Assembly (NCBI RefSeq): GCF_900476085.1 | Contig: NZ_LS991952.1 | Coordinates: 744,001-808,000, forward strand | Source of the DNA: Mycoplasmoides gallisepticum | Lineage (GTDB): Bacteria; Bacillota_I; Bacilli_A; Mycoplasmatales; Mycoplasmoidaceae | Length of the DNA: 64,000 nt | Direction of reading: 5' to 3' | In this document: positions 7,678 to 22,968 of the stretch, piece after piece | Layout of the letters: the number at the start of each line of letters is the position of its first letter | How positions within the stretch are numbered: position 1 is the stretch's first letter | Notes under the pieces: generated by a model | Databases searched by the model: none | Told to the model about the DNA's origin: nothing | Seen by the model: only the letters and a program-made list of their open reading frames with translations | Translations under genes and position numbers: made by a program

Positions 7678-10494
7678 TTAACTAACCACAAAGACTCTAA
7701 GTCTTTTTAGGTTGATGTCTCTTCCTTTTTGAGGGCTATTTACCTCGTAGAAAGTTAATACGTCAAAGTAGTTATCATTTTCGTTAAAAGTTACTGTAGT
7801 TGAATAACCATATGAACCTCTATTTATGGTGTAAATTGGTTCAAGGGTTCTAGGATTATTTATATCAACTAGATAAATTTTTCCACCACGATTATCACTA
7901 GCTGAGAAAATTAATTTCTCTCCTAGTGCTTTAATGTTAAAGATAGTAGATCCAATAAATTGTCCTGTAAAAATCCCTCTTTTAGCGTTAAAGATTACTT
8001 TTCAGTTTTTTCCACCGTCTTCTGATTTAATAAGTGTGAAAACTCTTCCATCAGATCTTCTGGCAAGTCATCATAAATTACCTTTACTATCTTCACTTAT
8101 AGATGATTCAGAAGCTCCAGGAGGAAGAAGTTTAAATGGATAATCTGCAAGTTCATATCAGGTTTTTCCACCATCTTTAGTTGCCATTAATTTAGAACGT
8201 TCTAGCTTTCTTTTGTTAGCAAAATAGAATGGGAAAACTGCTATAACATCTCCATTTGAATTACGTTGATGATTAAGTTGAATTCCGTTTCCAACACCAT
8301 TTATGTATCATCTTTGATCTTTTCTATTTAAAAATGGAGATACGTTTCTTAAATTAGTTCAGGTTTTTCCACCATCGATACTTTCAACTTGGAAAGTTCA
8401 TAAAATGTTATCAAAGTAGTATCTAGAATTTGCAAAGTAAGCATTTTTTTGCATTCTATTAAAAACAAAGTAATTTGGTCATCTTTGATCTCAAATTGAG
8501 TATTTTGATATATATTCTGAAATTTCTGATGATCTTGAATTTCTACCAGGCTCACCGAAAGTGCTAAAGATATTACTTGGAACTTTATCGTAGACATTTC
8601 CAGTTATAGTTCCGTTTTTCAATGAGTTATCAATTATTATATTAGCTTCGTCAAGCTGGGTTCTATCATCAATATCTTTTCATTGAACACGAGAACTATT
8701 TTTAACTTTAAATACTTTAAATCAGTTACTATCACCATCGACTGTAATAGGTTTTGCTACAAATTTTTGATTTAGATTTTCTTTATCAATAAATAGCATT
8801 CACTTATTGTTATTTACTAGCCCTGAAGTATTTCCATCACCTCTAATGGTTCATTCATCGTGAACTGTATGTAAGTAACTAGAAACTCCAAAAACATATA
8901 AAAGTTTATGCTTGTTAATGCTTTTATCAAATACCTCTAACATGGTTCCGTCAATTACTTGACCTTTATTTGCACCATCTTTGGTATTTTTAGCTGAAAT
9001 TCTAACAATAGTTTGAGGATTTGATCAGGTTTTTCCACCATCTTCAGATACTCTTATGTCTTGTTCTAGATGCCCACGGTCATCTTTATTGTTAACCCTT
9101 TTATCAGCGTTAAAAATTAGTTTATTATCATGAGTTTTTATAACTCCAGGTATTCTTCAAGTATTTACATCTTTTGTATAGTAGACGAATTTATCACCTG
9201 GAGGAGACATGTTAAAGAATAAATATTTTCCGTTAACAAGCGGACTTTTATTAAATGAAAAGTCGGTATAAAATACTTCTACAGTTCTATCGACGGTATT
9301 TGCGATAGTTACTTTAACTGGAGCTTTATTTTGTTTAAAGCTTTGTAGGTATTTTCTTTGGGTTTCAGATGATGCTTTAGTAAAGGTATCTAAATTAGGT
9401 TTAGATATAACAACTTTATGTTTATCATCGTAGGTCATTCTAGTTAAGTAACCGCTTGATATTAAGTTGCTGTTATCTAAAAATGATTCAACGTTGTCAA
9501 AGGTTTGTGCTGTTTTATTAACGTAGTATCCTAGTTTAAAGTCTTGCCCTTTAACTACTAAATCATCAGGAACGTTATAGAATTGATCTAAAGTTTCAAT
9601 ACTGGTTGAAAAGTTTTGAACCTCTTCAAGGTTTTTAAAAATTTCTTTTGATTGAAGTTTTTTAAAGTCAATGTCATCAACATCACTGTATAAACTTGAA
9701 ATTGAATTTATTTTTTTTAGTCATAGATTTAATTTTCCATTTAAGCTAAATGGATATAAGTTTCCGTAAAATACGTCATTAGCTGCCGGTATTTGTCATG
9801 TAATTTTATAATCCATTACATATGATGCGATAGTGAATTTAACAGGATTGCTTAGCGTAACTACAGCTCCGGTATATAAATTTAGCGGAACGTTATTTTT
9901 ATCAAAAAAAGTTAAATTAAGCTTATCTTGAAGCTCTGATAGTGAAATATTATCTGCATTATTTAAAAAGCTTTCAAGATCTTCTCTAGTTTGAAACTCG
10001 CTAGTGAATTCTTTAGTGTTATTTTCAGGTTTAATTAAAAATGTTGTCACGTTAGGATCGAATAATTTAACTTGTGAGTTTTTAAATTCTAGTTTAAATA
10101 GTTTAACTGCATCTTGATATTTTTTAGCTACTTTAACATTAGGTTTTACTGAAGCTTGAACATAAACTCAACCAGTAATGTAATTAACTCCTGCTAGTTT
10201 TAAATTTAAATCATCAATTGAATATTGTTTGTTGTTAAAAAATGCATTAACAAACTCTGGAAGGTTATCACTATTTATCTCTGAGATAAATCTTGAACCA
10301 TTTAAATCATCTTTAATATTAATTTCAAGATCCTCTTCTATATTAAGAGGAGCTCAAATTCATTTTAATGAAAGCGGAATTAAAAAAGAACTTATAATTG
10401 TTATGCTTCCGATTAAAAATGTAAAGGTAAATCAAAATCTCTTTTTAAATTGCGATTTTTTTTGTTGATCTTTTTGAGCTTTAGTTTTTTTCAT
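7678..10494 (-). CDS. nanH: Sialidase (exo-alpha-sialidase), membrane-anchored, 938 aa
   Basis: Would release terminal sialic acid from host glycoconjugates at the cell surface; sialidase is a known enzyme of M. gallisepticum. Reading TGA as Trp, the frame is unbroken from ATG 10494 to TAA 7678. A hydrophobic segment at about residues 22-48 without a lipobox suggests an uncleaved signal anchor. An Arg-Ile-Pro motif (WRIPGV) sits near residue 447. Four Asp-box repeats follow: SEDGGKTWSN (~482), DGGKTWTNL (~703), KDGGKTWYEL (~771) and SEDGGKNWKV (~823). The N-terminal 440 residues are unrecognised. It sits between the duplicated blocks, so it probably arrived with, or triggered, the rearrangement. 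Confidence 0.9.
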
Positions 10495-16526: not shown

Positions 16527-19109
16527 TTATTTTAAAGAATTTAGTTTATCTTGTTTTAGTTTAAGTTCTTCTTGATAGTTGCTTAACTTCTTTAGTTCAG
16601 CTTCATATTTCTCTTTAGGAGCTTTCTTTTTAAAGTTCTCGTTATTAACGATATTTGAACTTCGTTCAACTTCTTTTTCAAGTTTAGCTATCTCCACAAC
16701 TAACTTATCTACGATCTTAGTTTTATCTTGAGTATACACAACATAAAACTCATTATCTTCTGTTGCAATTAAGAATAGATCATTAAGTTTTTGATCAGAT
16801 ATCTTAATTAAATTTACATTCTCAGTTTTTAAATATTTAGTTAGATCCTTGATATAACTAACCTCATTTTTATAAAGTAGATCTAAAGTATCTTTATTCT
16901 TAAGATCAAAACTTTGCTTAAAGTTTCTAATCTTGATAATAAGATTAAAGATCTGATCAAAATGATCCAAGGCATTTTCAATCTTGATTAAACCTGGTCA
17001 TTTTTCAAGAATAATTGAAGGTTTTGAATCACTAAACTCAAAAGTGTTATAGATCTGTTCGGTAATAAACGGAACAGAAGGGTGTAGCATGATCAAAAAC
17101 TTTCTAAAGATATCGTTAGCTAACTCAAACTTAGCTTTTGATCATTGTGCCTTTTTATTTAACTCAATATAAACATTAGCAAAATCATCCCAAATAAAAT
17201 CGCTTAATTGTTTATTTGATAAGGCAAAACGATATTCTTTTAATTTATCTTGAATTCCCGCATTAACTTCGTTAAAACGGTGAATAATTCAATGATCTAA
17301 ACTATCTAATGGTTGATCTGTTAATTTGCTTTGATCGATCAACTTTAGATATCTAGCTAAGTTTCACAACTTATTTAAAAATGAAGCTGCAGCATTGATC
17401 TTTTCTACATTATATGAAACATCTTCACCTGGTGAGGTATTTGATGTTAAAAACAATCTTAAAGCATCAGCACCATACTGGTCAATAATCTGAATTGGAT
17501 CAACCCCGTTGTTCAAGCTCTTTGACATCTTGCGGTTATGTTCATCTAAGATTAAACCGTGTAATAATAGATCATGAAATGGAATCGATTTTTTTAATAA
17601 CCAAGACATGAAGATCATTCTTAAAACCCAGAAAAAGACGATATCATATGCTGTTACTAACAACGAGTTAGGGAAATTAGCATTAAACTCTTTTTGATCT
17701 AAACCATCATCAAAACAGATTAATGGTCAAAGTGCTGATGAAAACCAAGTATCAAGCACATCACTATCTCTATAATAATCATCACCTGGTGAATTAATAC
17801 TTACTATCACTTCATCAGGATGATCTTTATGATACCAAGCAGGGATCTGATGACCCCAAACTAATTGTCGAGAGATACATCAATCTTGATTATGATCTAA
17901 TCAGTTATTAATCGTATCTAAAAACCGCTTGGGATAGATCTTAATCTGATCTTCATTATTAACCAACTTTTTAATCTCATCAACAAACTTTGTCGTGATT
18001 AAAAACCATTGTTTTGATAACAATGGTTGAACTATCACATTAGATCGATCTGAGTAACCCACATTACTAGTAATCTCTTCAAATTTAACGTACTTATCTT
18101 CACTAATTAGCTTCTTAACTATTAACTCTCTAGCTTCATAGAGATCTAACCCACTAAACTCTAAAGCTAGCTCGTTTAAAGTTCCATCAAAGTTAATACA
18201 ACTTAATTCTTCTAATTGGTATTTCTTTGATAAGGCATAGTCATTATGATCATGCCCAGGAGTACATTTCATAACAGCACTCCCAAACTCCATATCAATA
18301 TATTCATCAACAAGGATTGGGATTAACTTATTATTTAATGGGTTAATCACCATCTGGTTGTGATACTTCAGATATCTTTGATCATTGGGATTAACAAAAA
18401 CAGCAACGTCAGCATAAATCGTTTCAGGACGAGTAGTTGCGATCACTAAATAGTCATTACTATCTTTTAGATAGTATTTGATGTAATGTAGTTTTTGTGT
18501 TGTTTCTTTGTTAATTACCTCAATGTTTGAGATTGCGGTATTAAGTTTAGTATCCCAATTAACAAGGGTATATTTTTTAACAATATAACCTTGTTGATAT
18601 AGTTTTACAAATACGTCTAGAACGTATTTGTTTGATTCTTGGGATAAAGTAAACTTTTCTTTCTTTCAATTAAGTGCTAAACCTAGTGATTTAGCTTGAT
18701 TCTTAATTGTTTGCGAAGATTCTTGTGATCATTGATAGATATTATTAAAGTGCGTAGTTCGATCATCTTTTTTATAATTGATCTCTTTAGTTCTTTGAAT
18801 TGATTCAAATTTAGTTTGGGTAGCAATACCTGCATGATCAGTTCCAGGGATCCAATTGATCTTACCCATTACCAATTTTTGATAACGAACGATTAGATCT
18901 TGAATTGATAGATTTCATGCATGCCCAATGTGCAAGATTCCCGTTAAATTGGGTGGGGGCATGATAATGCTAAAAGGTTTAGCATTAGGATCACAAAAAT
19001 CTGAATCTTGGTTAGCATAATCAGTGGTTAACCAAAAATCCACTACCCCTTCACTAACAGTTTTATGATCGTATTTCTGATTTAGATCAATCTTTTTTAA
19101 TCGCTTCAT
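16527..19109 (-). CDS. valS: Valyl-tRNA synthetase
   Basis: 860 residues, the full length expected. Charges tRNA-Val. Class I signatures: [15 protein letters not shown] near residue 52 and the KMSKS loop in [13 protein letters not shown]. The CP1 editing domain begins [17 protein letters not shown]. The C-terminus is a charged coiled coil ([11 protein letters not shown] onward) typical of ValRS. Several TGA codons are read as Trp, including the one right after the HIGH motif. Confidence 0.97.
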
Positions 19110-19126
19110 AATTTATAAAAAAATAT

Positions 19127-19687
19127 TTAAGAAATCACATCAATTATCTTCAGCATTAAATTATTTAAGTTTTGTTTGTTCTTAGCACTAATTAAAAGAA
19201 TTCTGTCTTCATTAACTTTAAGAGCATCCAAAATCTTTTCTTTATTATTGATATAAGCTGACTTGGGGTACTTATCAATCTTATTAAAAACGATATAGTA
19301 CTCAACATCTAAAGTGGTTAGTAAGCGCACAATCTCAATATCTTGATCAGTAATCACCCCAAGATCTAAGATCAAAAAGATCCCAACTAAATTTTTGCGG
19401 TGATTTAAGTAATCACTTAAAAATAACGAGATCTCTTCTTTTTGCGATTTTTTAATCCGCGCATAACCATAACCAGGTAGATCAACAATTCGTTGATTGC
19501 TGATCTCATAAAAGTTCATCGTAACTGTTCTACCTGGTGTTTTTGATGTTTGAGCTATCTTTGCATTCGCTAGACCGTTGATAATTGTTGATTTACCAAC
19601 GTTAGAACGACCGATTAAACATACCTCTTTTTTAGAATCGTTAATGCAGTCCTTTAAACTAGTTGCACTTTTAATAAAACGATTCAT
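19127..19687 (-). CDS. engB: Ribosome biogenesis GTPase EngB/YsxC
   Basis: 186 residues. A small GTPase that assists large-subunit assembly. All G motifs are visible: GRSNVGKST (G1), TPGRT (G2), DLPGYGYA (G3), NKIDK (G4) and SAK (G5). It lies between a YneF-like gene and valS, with 5 and 17 bp gaps, in one transcription unit. Confidence 0.96.
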   Translation of the reverse strand: MNRFIKSATSLKDCINDSKKEVCLIGRSNVGKSTIINGLANAKIAQTSKTPGRTVTMNFYEISNQRIVDLPGYGYARIKKSQKEEISLFLSDYLNHRKNLVGIFLILDLGVITDQDIEIVRLLTTLDVEYYIVFNKIDKYPKSAYINNKEKILDALKVNEDRILLISAKNKQNLNNLMLKIIDVIS

Positions 19688-19692
19688 GCTCG

Positions 19693-19914
19693 TTATTTTG
19701 TTTCCTTAGTATAAGCACGCATCATTTGTTTTACTTGAGCTTCAGAAGGCTTACGTCCCATTTGAGCATATAAGCTACGGATCTGTGCTTCTGTAATCGG
19801 TGGGTTCTTACGCATCTGACGCTTGAACACTTTCATTGAGACAAAATAACCAACAAAAGCCCCAACAATTAAACATAAAGGAATACTTAAACCTAACGCT
19901 AATCCTAATACCAT
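19693..19914 (-). CDS. YneF/UPF0154 family small membrane protein
   Basis: 73 residues: one N-terminal transmembrane helix (GLALGLSIPLCLIVGAFVGY) followed by a basic cytoplasmic tail with the family pattern PPITEAQIRSLYAQMGRKPS and VKQMMRAY. This is the UPF0154 arrangement, conserved in Firmicutes and mycoplasmas, function unknown. Confidence 0.88.
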   Translation of the reverse strand: MVLGLALGLSIPLCLIVGAFVGYFVSMKVFKRQMRKNPPITEAQIRSLYAQMGRKPSEAQVKQMMRAYTKETK

Positions 19915-19946
19915 CTTTTTTTAACTCCCGATCATTATTTTAATTA

Positions 19947-19969
19947 TTCAAATCAATTGTTGATTTGAA
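19947..19969 (-). terminator. Perfect 10-bp hairpin after the transketolase-like gene
   Basis: Arms ttcaaatcaa and ttgatttgaa with a 3-nt loop, about 50 bp past the stop at 20020. No long T-run follows, so it may be a weak terminator or a processing site. The rest of 19915-20019 holds nothing recognised. Confidence 0.4.
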
Positions 19970-20019
19970 ATTTCTTCTAGTTTTTTTGTTAGCAACTTTT
20001 TTAACAAAGTTAAAGAAAA

Positions 20020-21951
20020 TTATTGTTTATCTTCTTTAGTTGCGTTAAGTTGCTTATTTGACTCATCAACTTTAGTTTTATTATCTAATGTTTTTATTTT
20101 ATTATTACTTTTTTGTGCACGTCTTGGTTTCTTAATATAAGTCGTGTTTTCAGTTGATTTATGATCAACTTCTGGTTGGTTTTGTGACAAAACATAACCC
20201 CAAGCAACTTTATCTGCTCTTGAGATAAAATAGCTCGGTAGATTTTTTAGTAACACTGATTTAGAAACAGCATTAATCTGATCAAAATCAGTTAATGAGA
20301 TTACTGAAACGATCCTTGCAGTAATCTTATTTTCTAAAAGCTGTTGCCTTAAATCTAACGCTTTAATTAGATCACTCCCTGCAGTGACAATGTTAACTGT
20401 AGCATAACTATCACCATACAGTTCATACCCGCCAAAATTGATCTTATCTGCTTGTATACTAATCAGATCATCTGATGAAGGTAAGATAATATATGTTTTA
20501 TCTTTGTTCTTGGCCTTGAAGTTACAAAGCGAATATTTTAATTCTTCATTTGTACCTGGTTGAAGAACGATCCCATCTTTTTCTCGCGAGATCAGATCGA
20601 TAACTTTGTTAACGTACTTTCTTGAAAGTTCTTTACAATTATCAACTAAATATAAGATCTGATCTTTCTTTTCTTCTAATTTTAAGTTTTGAATCGTTTT
20701 ATCAATCAGATTAATATCAAGATTAATCACTGGTAAGTGAATCTTGTTGTCACTAATTGCATTAGCAATTATGATTGCCAACTCAATTCAGTTTCCTAAT
20801 AAAACGATCCGGCTAGGATCGATTGCTTCAACTTCACGTTCGAATTCATCATCGTGATCACTTACATTTAAGAGAACGCTATTAGATTGGCACCTAATTA
20901 AATCAGCTTTTAATTTAGCCAACGATTGGTTGGCATCAATCTGATCTTCAGATAATGCTCAATCCTTAAAAGCTGATAAATAATTAGGAATTACAAGATT
21001 ATTTTGTTTTAATTGATCAACTTGATCAGCAATCAACTCTTTTAATTTATTAACACGTTCTTTAATATTAGGATAAAGATCATTAGCAGTCTCATAAAGC
21101 ACCATAAATTCTTCACCCGTGTATTCAAACCTTTTAGTTAATTGATCAAGTTGATCTTGAGTTAAAGAGCTTTTTATTACTTCTTTAGTTCCAGCTGAAT
21201 CATAACCATGTCCTACGATCGTGTTGATATCAATAAATACAGGTTTTTTTGAATTAACTGCATAATGAAAACCAGCATCAAGCTTTTCGATATTATTCCC
21301 ATTAAAGACATTGATATATTTAAAACCCATATCTTTAACTAATGAAGAAAAATCAGTAACCAAATAATCCTGGTTTTCACCTCGTTCTTCAAAATGATTA
21401 TTATCATAGATAATAATCAGATTATTTAATTCTTGGTTAGCTGCAGTTTTAAGAGCTGCTAATCCATAGCTAGAATTCAGATCTGCAGCACTCACGATAC
21501 AATAAATTTTATTGGTAATTGTATCGTGAGATTTTTGGTTTACCAACTTTGCATCGATCGCTAGACCAACTGCATAAGCTAAGTTATAACCTGGTTGGTA
21601 AGTTGAAAAATCATAAAGATTTCTTATCTGCTTTTCATGTGAAAAGCTCATTAGATCTTCAATCTTAATATCAGGATGTTTTAATAAATAAAAACATGCC
21701 CTGATATTTGATCCACCAAGTTGCTTTGATACCACCAACTTATCATTGTAATTGGCATCAAGATTATCCAGGTCCATAACAAAATAGTTACGGAATAAAA
21801 CATAAAGATAACTAGCTGCACCAAACCCATATGCAGCTGAGCCAACAAAGTTATTGTTGACTGTATCAAACATTAAAAATCTAAAGTTATTAACGATTGA
21901 GTTCGAGTTTTTAGGAAAGGGTTTATTTTGATAAATCAACTTAATAACCAT
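20020..21951 (-). CDS. Transketolase-like protein, catalytic motifs degenerate
   Basis: 643 residues, close to transketolase length, with the same domain order. Recognisable parts are an N-terminal helix SIVNNFRFLMFDTV, a YQPGYNLAYAVGLAID segment, LNNLIIIYDNN, PVFIDINTIVGHG and a C-terminal VNIVTAGSDLIKALDLRQQL. Residues expected for thiamine diphosphate and substrate are missing. SGHPG is replaced by NFVGSAAYG (34-42), the SNGHGS loop by SKQLGGS (75-81), and GDGxxxEG by SAADLNSSYG (154-163). The middle-domain HDSI-GEDGPTHQP block is not recognisable. It ends in a Lys-rich tail. Inferred to be a non-catalytic or repurposed paralogue; a true transketolase would be elsewhere. Confidence 0.7.
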
Positions 21952-21969: not shown

Positions 21970-22968
21970 TTATCTGAATAATCGTTTATTTTCACCGCTT
22001 TTTAGTTTTTCTCTAAGGTTATTAGGCACCTTAAAAATATAGTTAGAAGCCATATATTGGTTTCTTAACGGAATGATAATATTTTGCTCAAATTTCTCTC
22101 TTAAAGATGGAACTGAGCTGCGATATTCAATTCTTACTTGATCTATTATATTGGTAATTATACTAGATTTAAAATCGTTTAATCGGTCTTTAATGGGCAC
22201 GTAATTGCTGAACCATTCCACCATTCTTGGGAATTGATGCAAGATATATCGATACTTAGCTTCTAAGAATTTAAAACGCTCAAAATCGTAGTAATTATCA
22301 GACTCAATGAAATTGATTGTTGGCTTTCATACGACTCTAAAGAAGTCACAGTTAGCTAACATATCATATTTAATATAGAAGTCTGGAATATATGGGTTTC
22401 TACCATAACGCATATCTAGAGCTTCAAAAAATGACTTTTTGATTAACATCCCTTGGGTGTAGAAAGAATTGCCAAAGATGTAATCGATTGAATTGCGATC
22501 TGAAATTTTCTTATCATTGGTTGGAATATCATACATCCCCTTCATTGGGTTAGCTGTATTCCCCACCATGTTTCTACCAATAACGATCTCAGTAAATTGC
22601 TCTACTACAGAAACCATGTTTTTAATCGCATCTTGATTTAAGGTATTAGGTGTTTCTAAAAACATAAAGAAGTGACCTGATGCATATTTGATCAACTGAT
22701 CATAAACAAAACCCTTACCCCTTTGAATTGGGTTTCGATAGATTCTAATATTTTGTTCTAGTGTTTCAAAACGTTTCAATACTTGGTAAGAGTTATCGCT
22801 TGAACAATCATCAATACAGATAATCTCAACGTTTTTATAGCTTTGAAATAAAGCAGAACTAACAGTAATTTCTATATTCTTAGCATTATTATATATAGGA
22901 ATAAGAATAGAAATTAAAGGATTTTTTACATGATAAAACTCAGAAGATCTAGAATTGGTTTCATTCAT
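21970..22968 (-). CDS. Family 2 glycosyltransferase
   Basis: 332 residues. The N-terminal GT-A fold is clear: ISILIPIYNNAKNIEITVSS, QSYKNVEIICIDDCSSDNS and an RNPIQRGKGFVYD stretch. No membrane segment is seen, so it probably acts at the inner face of the membrane on glycolipid or polysaccharide precursors. The C-terminal 120 residues are basic and poorly conserved. It starts upstream of the transketolase-like gene (18 bp gap) and is divergent from dinB; 22969-23082 should hold both promoters. Confidence 0.85.

Follow-up and report, generated by a model that had tools for sequence, protein, structure and literature searches.

The window (the whole stretch of DNA that was analysed, 64,000 nucleotides long and corresponding to 744-808 kb of a single-contig genome of 981,408 bases) contains on its reverse strand a transketolase-like gene, here called TKL (20020-21951). 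Its frame runs without interruption from an ATG start to a stop codon when it is read in code 4 and breaks under table 11, which confirms the intact frame of 643 codons reported in an earlier reading of the sequence alone (the sequence-only reading). As this frame is furthermore conserved in 10 species, an artefact of annotation or of frame can be ruled out. The relatives of TKL by identity are found in Mycoplasma imitans (73-74%) and M. bradburyae (61%), and also in M. amphoriforme and M. testudinis, which places the gene in the M. gallisepticum cluster of Mycoplasmoides. The domains of the protein and the surrounding genes are listed in Table 1. The tail includes a KIK motif that is kept within the close clade, and the M. 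amphoriforme protein (L068 5938-7359), of 474 aa, is without the C-terminal domain. Scans for promoters and terminators gave signals near chance level. In this part of the window (19127-21951) engB is 96% identical to that of M. imitans (L006) and 85% to that of G010 (L005), while TKL is 73% and 84% identical, respectively, and this opposite order suggests interspecies recombination at the locus. Elsewhere in the window, a 938-aa frame (7678-10494, reverse strand) presents several Asp-box-like repeats (DGGKTW) and is sialidase-like by eye.

Table 1. Features of the TKL locus (window coordinates) and the g15 genes discussed in the text.
Feature	Position	Strand	Remarks
TKL, transketolase-like, very likely a pseudoenzyme	20020..21951	-	643 aa, code 4, two in-frame TGA = Trp
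PP (ThDP-binding) domain of TKL, residues 1-320	20992..21951	-	best conserved part, dN/dS 0.07-0.16
Middle (Pyr) domain of TKL, residues 321-505	20437..20991	-	no Pfam match, strongly diverged
C-terminal transketolase domain of TKL, residues 506-590	20182..20436	-	PF22613, E=4e-6
Lys/Asn-rich tail of TKL, residues 591-643	20023..20181	-	weakly constrained, dN/dS ~0.3-0.7
UPF0154/YneF family gene, directly downstream of TKL	19693..19914	-	synteny anchor of the native tkt slot
engB/YihA-like GTPase gene, after UPF0154	19127..19687	-	
valS-like gene, end of the conserved block	16527..19109	-	
GT2-type glycosyltransferase-like gene, 18 bp upstream of TKL	21970..22968	-	DXD motif lost
g15 genomes with a pseudo-transketolase, first part			G139, G250, G134, G098, G232, G137, G255, G280, G241
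g15 genomes with a pseudo-transketolase, second part			G145, G141, G155, G264, G212, G151, G254, G275
g15 pseudo-transketolase loci			L083-L088, L091-L101

Pfam recognised a Transketolase_N domain (E=1.3e-26) and the C-terminal domain in TKL, but not the middle Pyr domain, and the NCBIfam transketolase models gave it ~120 bits, with cut-offs near 700. A comparison by hhalign of a profile of nine TKLs with one of 13 canonical transketolases (TKTs) gave a collinear alignment of 561 columns (probability 100%, E=1.5e-46, 21% identity). TKL is thus a whole transketolase by descent, and the transketolase length and domain order first read from its sequence are borne out.

In an alignment of the TKLs with E. 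coli TktA and the canonical TKTs of mycoplasmas, we scored 23 ThDP, Mg2+ and substrate positions of TktA, a set that, like its numbering, we take from general knowledge of transketolase structures and that was checked for letter identity in TktA only. The TKLs keep 0-3 of these residues depending on the alignment, and the canonical mycoplasma TKTs 21-23 (22-23 in the canonical tkt of the same genome). In TKL, SGHPG is changed to VGSAA, SAGHGS to SKQLGG and GDG to SAA; the TPGHPE loop carrying H100 is deleted, the H261 loop is replaced or deleted, and both the HDS..GEDGPTHQP block of the middle domain and the catalytic E411/H473 block are absent, so that the alignment to TktA upholds the claim of the sequence-only reading that the named cofactor motifs are all replaced. 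The Mg2+/diphosphate motif GDG(X)n-N (D155, N185) is lacking, D155 being substituted by A, T, S or Q in nine of nine TKLs, and none of the histidines H26, H66, H100, H261, H461 and H473 is conserved in any TKL of the alignment. The PP-domain part of this alignment is secure and the middle domain is uncertain; in the weakly aligned E411 column of the Pyr domain no Glu appears, with the exception of one uncertain row. Altogether, 73 of the 90 columns that are invariant among canonical TKTs are lost from the TKLs. In the PP domain, N69, K76 and H248 (aligned to R57, N64 and F249 of the E. coli protein) are invariant only among TKLs and lie around what was the pocket for cofactor and substrate, close to the loops that carried H66 and H261; the polar residues N220 and R274 of this domain are likewise invariant in TKLs only. 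An AlphaFold2 model of full-length TKL, built from 9 alignment rows, was poor (pLDDT 46.5, pTM 0.42, with the PP core alone at 60-90) and therefore the pocket was not judged from it.

The sequence-only reading had also proposed to look for a second, canonical tkt, and one of 662 aa was in fact found in the same genome at 33.5 kb (G000:C1:33.5 kb), so TKL as the only transketolase of the cell can be ruled out; a DXS-like frame is present at ~477 kb. The position of TKL is informative in this respect. UPF0154 directly follows TKL in 9 of 10 TKL genomes, and engB and valS come next in the loci inspected; the M. amphoriforme TKL stands apart from UPF0154-engB. In order-wide searches for UPF0154 and Transketolase_N, the gene immediately before UPF0154 was, among the matches listed, a canonical tkt in 11 of the 12 genomes from g8 (a genus of the same family), in 6/6 genomes of family f3 and in 40/57 of family f4; none of the 10 canonical tkt genes of the window's genus has this position. 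The slot before UPF0154 is hence the native tkt slot in related Mollicutes, which suggests that the resident gene became non-catalytic and another copy kept the chemistry. This argument rests on synteny; the TKL branches of the tree are very long and the exact branching is uncertain. In the M. genitalium-like genome G005 the slot is closed, valS-engB-UPF0154 being followed by a divergent glycosyltransferase gene. The tkt of G005 (L014) groups with TKTs of another family (L090 of G275 and L107 of G271; 99/98) and not with those of the other members of its genus, and a gene replacement is possible there.

A genus-wide search found TKL in 10 of 11 genomes, the M. genitalium-like G005 being the one without it, and a canonical tkt in all ten TKL genomes. 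The separation of the family is clear in the profile search (true TKLs E<=1e-177, all other matches E>=1e-59) and in the tree, where all TKLs fall into a single clade (100/100) with subclades that mirror the ones seen among canonical TKTs. As the feature is family-wide, a chance divergence in a single genome can be discarded. Between species, dN/dS was 0.13-0.21 for the whole gene and about 0.07-0.2 outside the tail, with the PP domain and the tail at the values given in Table 1. TKL is under purifying selection, slightly weaker than that on canonical tkt (dN/dS 0.08-0.11).

We have also found a second case in genus g15 (family f5), in which 17 of 22 genomes encode an intact transketolase-like protein (about 600-627 aa) in which 0-8 of the 23 residues remain; its dN/dS is 0.07-0.26. 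This genus is likely Metamycoplasma, which fits the absence of phosphofructokinase from 21 of its 22 genomes. At the two g15 loci inspected in full the degenerate gene follows efp and an Asp23-like gene, a slot that holds a canonical tkt in genera g25, g41 and g37 (in g27 tkt comes directly after efp). No canonical transketolase was found in 16 of the 17 g15 genomes with the degenerate protein; the remaining one, G275, carries a canonical tkt, beside an fba-looking gene, in addition to the degenerate gene, which occupies the native slot. In the tree, TKL groups with the TKTs of family f1 (99/99) and the g15 proteins with those of f5 (99/96), indicating two origins. The cofactor and substrate residues that remain in the g15 proteins vary between species, as if a site no longer required were being worn away step by step in a protein that itself continues to be required. 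In M. hominis, which lacks 6-phosphofructokinase, TktA was detected by mass spectrometry and counted as an enzyme of the pentose phosphate pathway (PMC8895549).

All these data indicate that TKL is very likely a pseudoenzyme, as far as sequence can tell, since it combines homology to an enzyme and loss of the catalytic residues with an intact gene under selection. The sequence-only reading had reached the same interpretation, which is now strongly supported by the loss of the site across 10 species, the intact frames, a dN/dS well below 1 and the presence of a canonical tkt in each genome. Its suggestion of a moonlighting surface protein is, however, unsupported, as there is no N-terminal signal or membrane-type hydrophobic segment: none was found in nine TKLs, with a maximum 19-residue Kyte-Doolittle value of <=1.86. 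A secreted or surface TKL is thus unsupported by classical signals, and non-classical export is possible. We consider it probable that the gene in the native tkt slot encodes a true pseudoenzyme, kept for a non-catalytic job of the folded protein. According to this model, a second tkt copy would have taken over the chemistry in the Mycoplasmoides lineage, and the transketolase of the native tkt-UPF0154 slot would then have lost the binding of ThDP/Mg2+ and substrate and would owe its retention to this non-catalytic task. TKL would do no catalysis, and its second job would predate the loss of catalysis. Most likely, the remodelled pocket of the PP domain would bind a new small ligand or another protein, and the pocket bearing N69, K76 and H248 is a putative binding site. 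A non-catalytic function of TKL is suggested by conservation only, and since the protein is intact under selection in ten species and in an independent second group, the fold probably has such a job. A conserved scaffold formed by the whole protein is doubtful because the middle and C-terminal domains are very diverged (the latter being absent in M. amphoriforme), and the PP domain alone may be what matters. That the M. genitalium-like genome does without TKL counts against this explanation. More tentatively, we also propose that mycoplasma transketolase has an important second function independent of the cofactor, for which two independent lineages would have kept the fold at the native locus once catalysis had disappeared or passed to another gene copy; if true, this would be a new and widespread moonlighting role of transketolase, exposed by evolution.

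An alternative is that TKL has a regulatory role, pairing in heterodimers with the cell's own canonical TKT and adjusting the pentose phosphate flux, as is reported of human TKTL1. TKTL1-TKT heterodimers have been reported (PMC6555833), and TKT shortened by 38 residues as a model of TKTL1 was folded, bound no thiamine cofactor and was inactive (PMC3485151). In TKL, as in TKTL1, part of the PP domain is missing (in TKL the H100 loop). The PP-domain fold is retained in TKL, and a canonical tkt is present in every TKL genome, although this co-occurrence is weak evidence because canonical tkt is near-universal in the relatives. Much of the transketolase dimer is made by the middle domain, however, and this is the most diverged part of TKL. 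Moreover, the lack of a canonical partner in nearly all of the g15 genomes with a pseudo-transketolase (16/17) means that this model is not a general answer. A heterodimer is possible for TKL itself, but on the whole we regard this explanation as unlikely.

Less probable still is that TKL and the GT2-like protein encoded upstream form a pair of degenerate sugar enzymes with a role in envelope or glycolipid biology. The two genes are co-directional and separated by 18 bp, and a glycosyltransferase neighbour occurs in 8 of 10 TKL genomes, but TKL of G001 and G007 lies beside unrelated genes with no close glycosyltransferase found, and for a mycoplasma, gene adjacency counts as weak evidence. The GT2-like protein has FLETPN in place of DXD, and its relatives in M. 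amphoriforme and M. testudinis also lack the first Asp. In MG517, a glycolipid synthase of M. genitalium, the residues used are D40, D93/D95 and E193 (PMC3849446); where MG517 has its catalytic base, the residue of the GT2-like protein is not acidic, and this protein is a candidate pseudo-glycosyltransferase. As this protein has also lost its DXD, we keep the function as a pair as a lead.

It is also improbable, to a similar or slightly greater degree, that TKL is catalytically active through a new site, either rebuilt or independent of ThDP. The strong selection on the PP domain and its TKL-only polar invariants, several of them near the old pocket, would agree with a new site. We know of no enzymes of transketolase fold outside ThDP chemistry. 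Against a new site, no new acidic or metal-binding set is conserved in the TKLs, whose middle and C-terminal domains vary greatly and are lacking in part, and the residual residues of the g15 proteins differ by species, as expected from erosion and not from a new site. The alternative named in the sequence-only reading, a complete ThDP site made up of other residues, is disfavoured because neither a substitute acidic metal ligand nor a substitute His is conserved across the TKLs.

Finally, that TKL is a recently formed pseudogene or a passenger in the process of being lost, as its fast evolution, the shortened M. amphoriforme protein and the absence from the M. genitalium-like genome might suggest, is hardly credible given frames that are intact in all ten species over a deep divergence and a low dN/dS outside the tail.

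Our search of open-licence papers found none on a transketolase pseudoenzyme in mycoplasmas, and the name tktA_1 of one M. gallisepticum gene suggests a second gene of the same name (PMC9681074). Because TKL and the g15 proteins match transketolase families and could easily be annotated as transketolase, a metabolic model in which they figure as active enzymes of the pentose phosphate pathway may be in error, especially for species with no transketolase other than the degenerate one. Genes of reduced genomes that keep the fold of an enzyme and erase its active site expose functions hidden behind catalysis, and with two independent cases a non-catalytic role of transketolase becomes directly testable.

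In comparison with canonical bacterial transketolases (E. coli TktA and the tkt of its own genome), TKL shares the collinear three-domain homology, a similar length and the native tkt slot of the lineage, but it has lost nearly all of the 23 ThDP, Mg2+ and substrate residues and the H100 loop, and its middle domain is not seen by Pfam. The g15 pseudo-transketolases are like TKL in the lost cofactor site, the purifying selection and, where checked, the native tkt slot, and differ from it in their separate origin, the efp-Asp23-like slot, being usually the sole gene of the transketolase family, and the graded loss of residues. Human TKTL1 is, like TKL, a transketolase paralogue that coexists with a canonical TKT and has part of the PP-domain active site deleted; however, TKTL1 presents high identity to TKT, whereas TKL, a bacterial protein of separate origin, is ~20% identical and has lost almost every catalytic residue.
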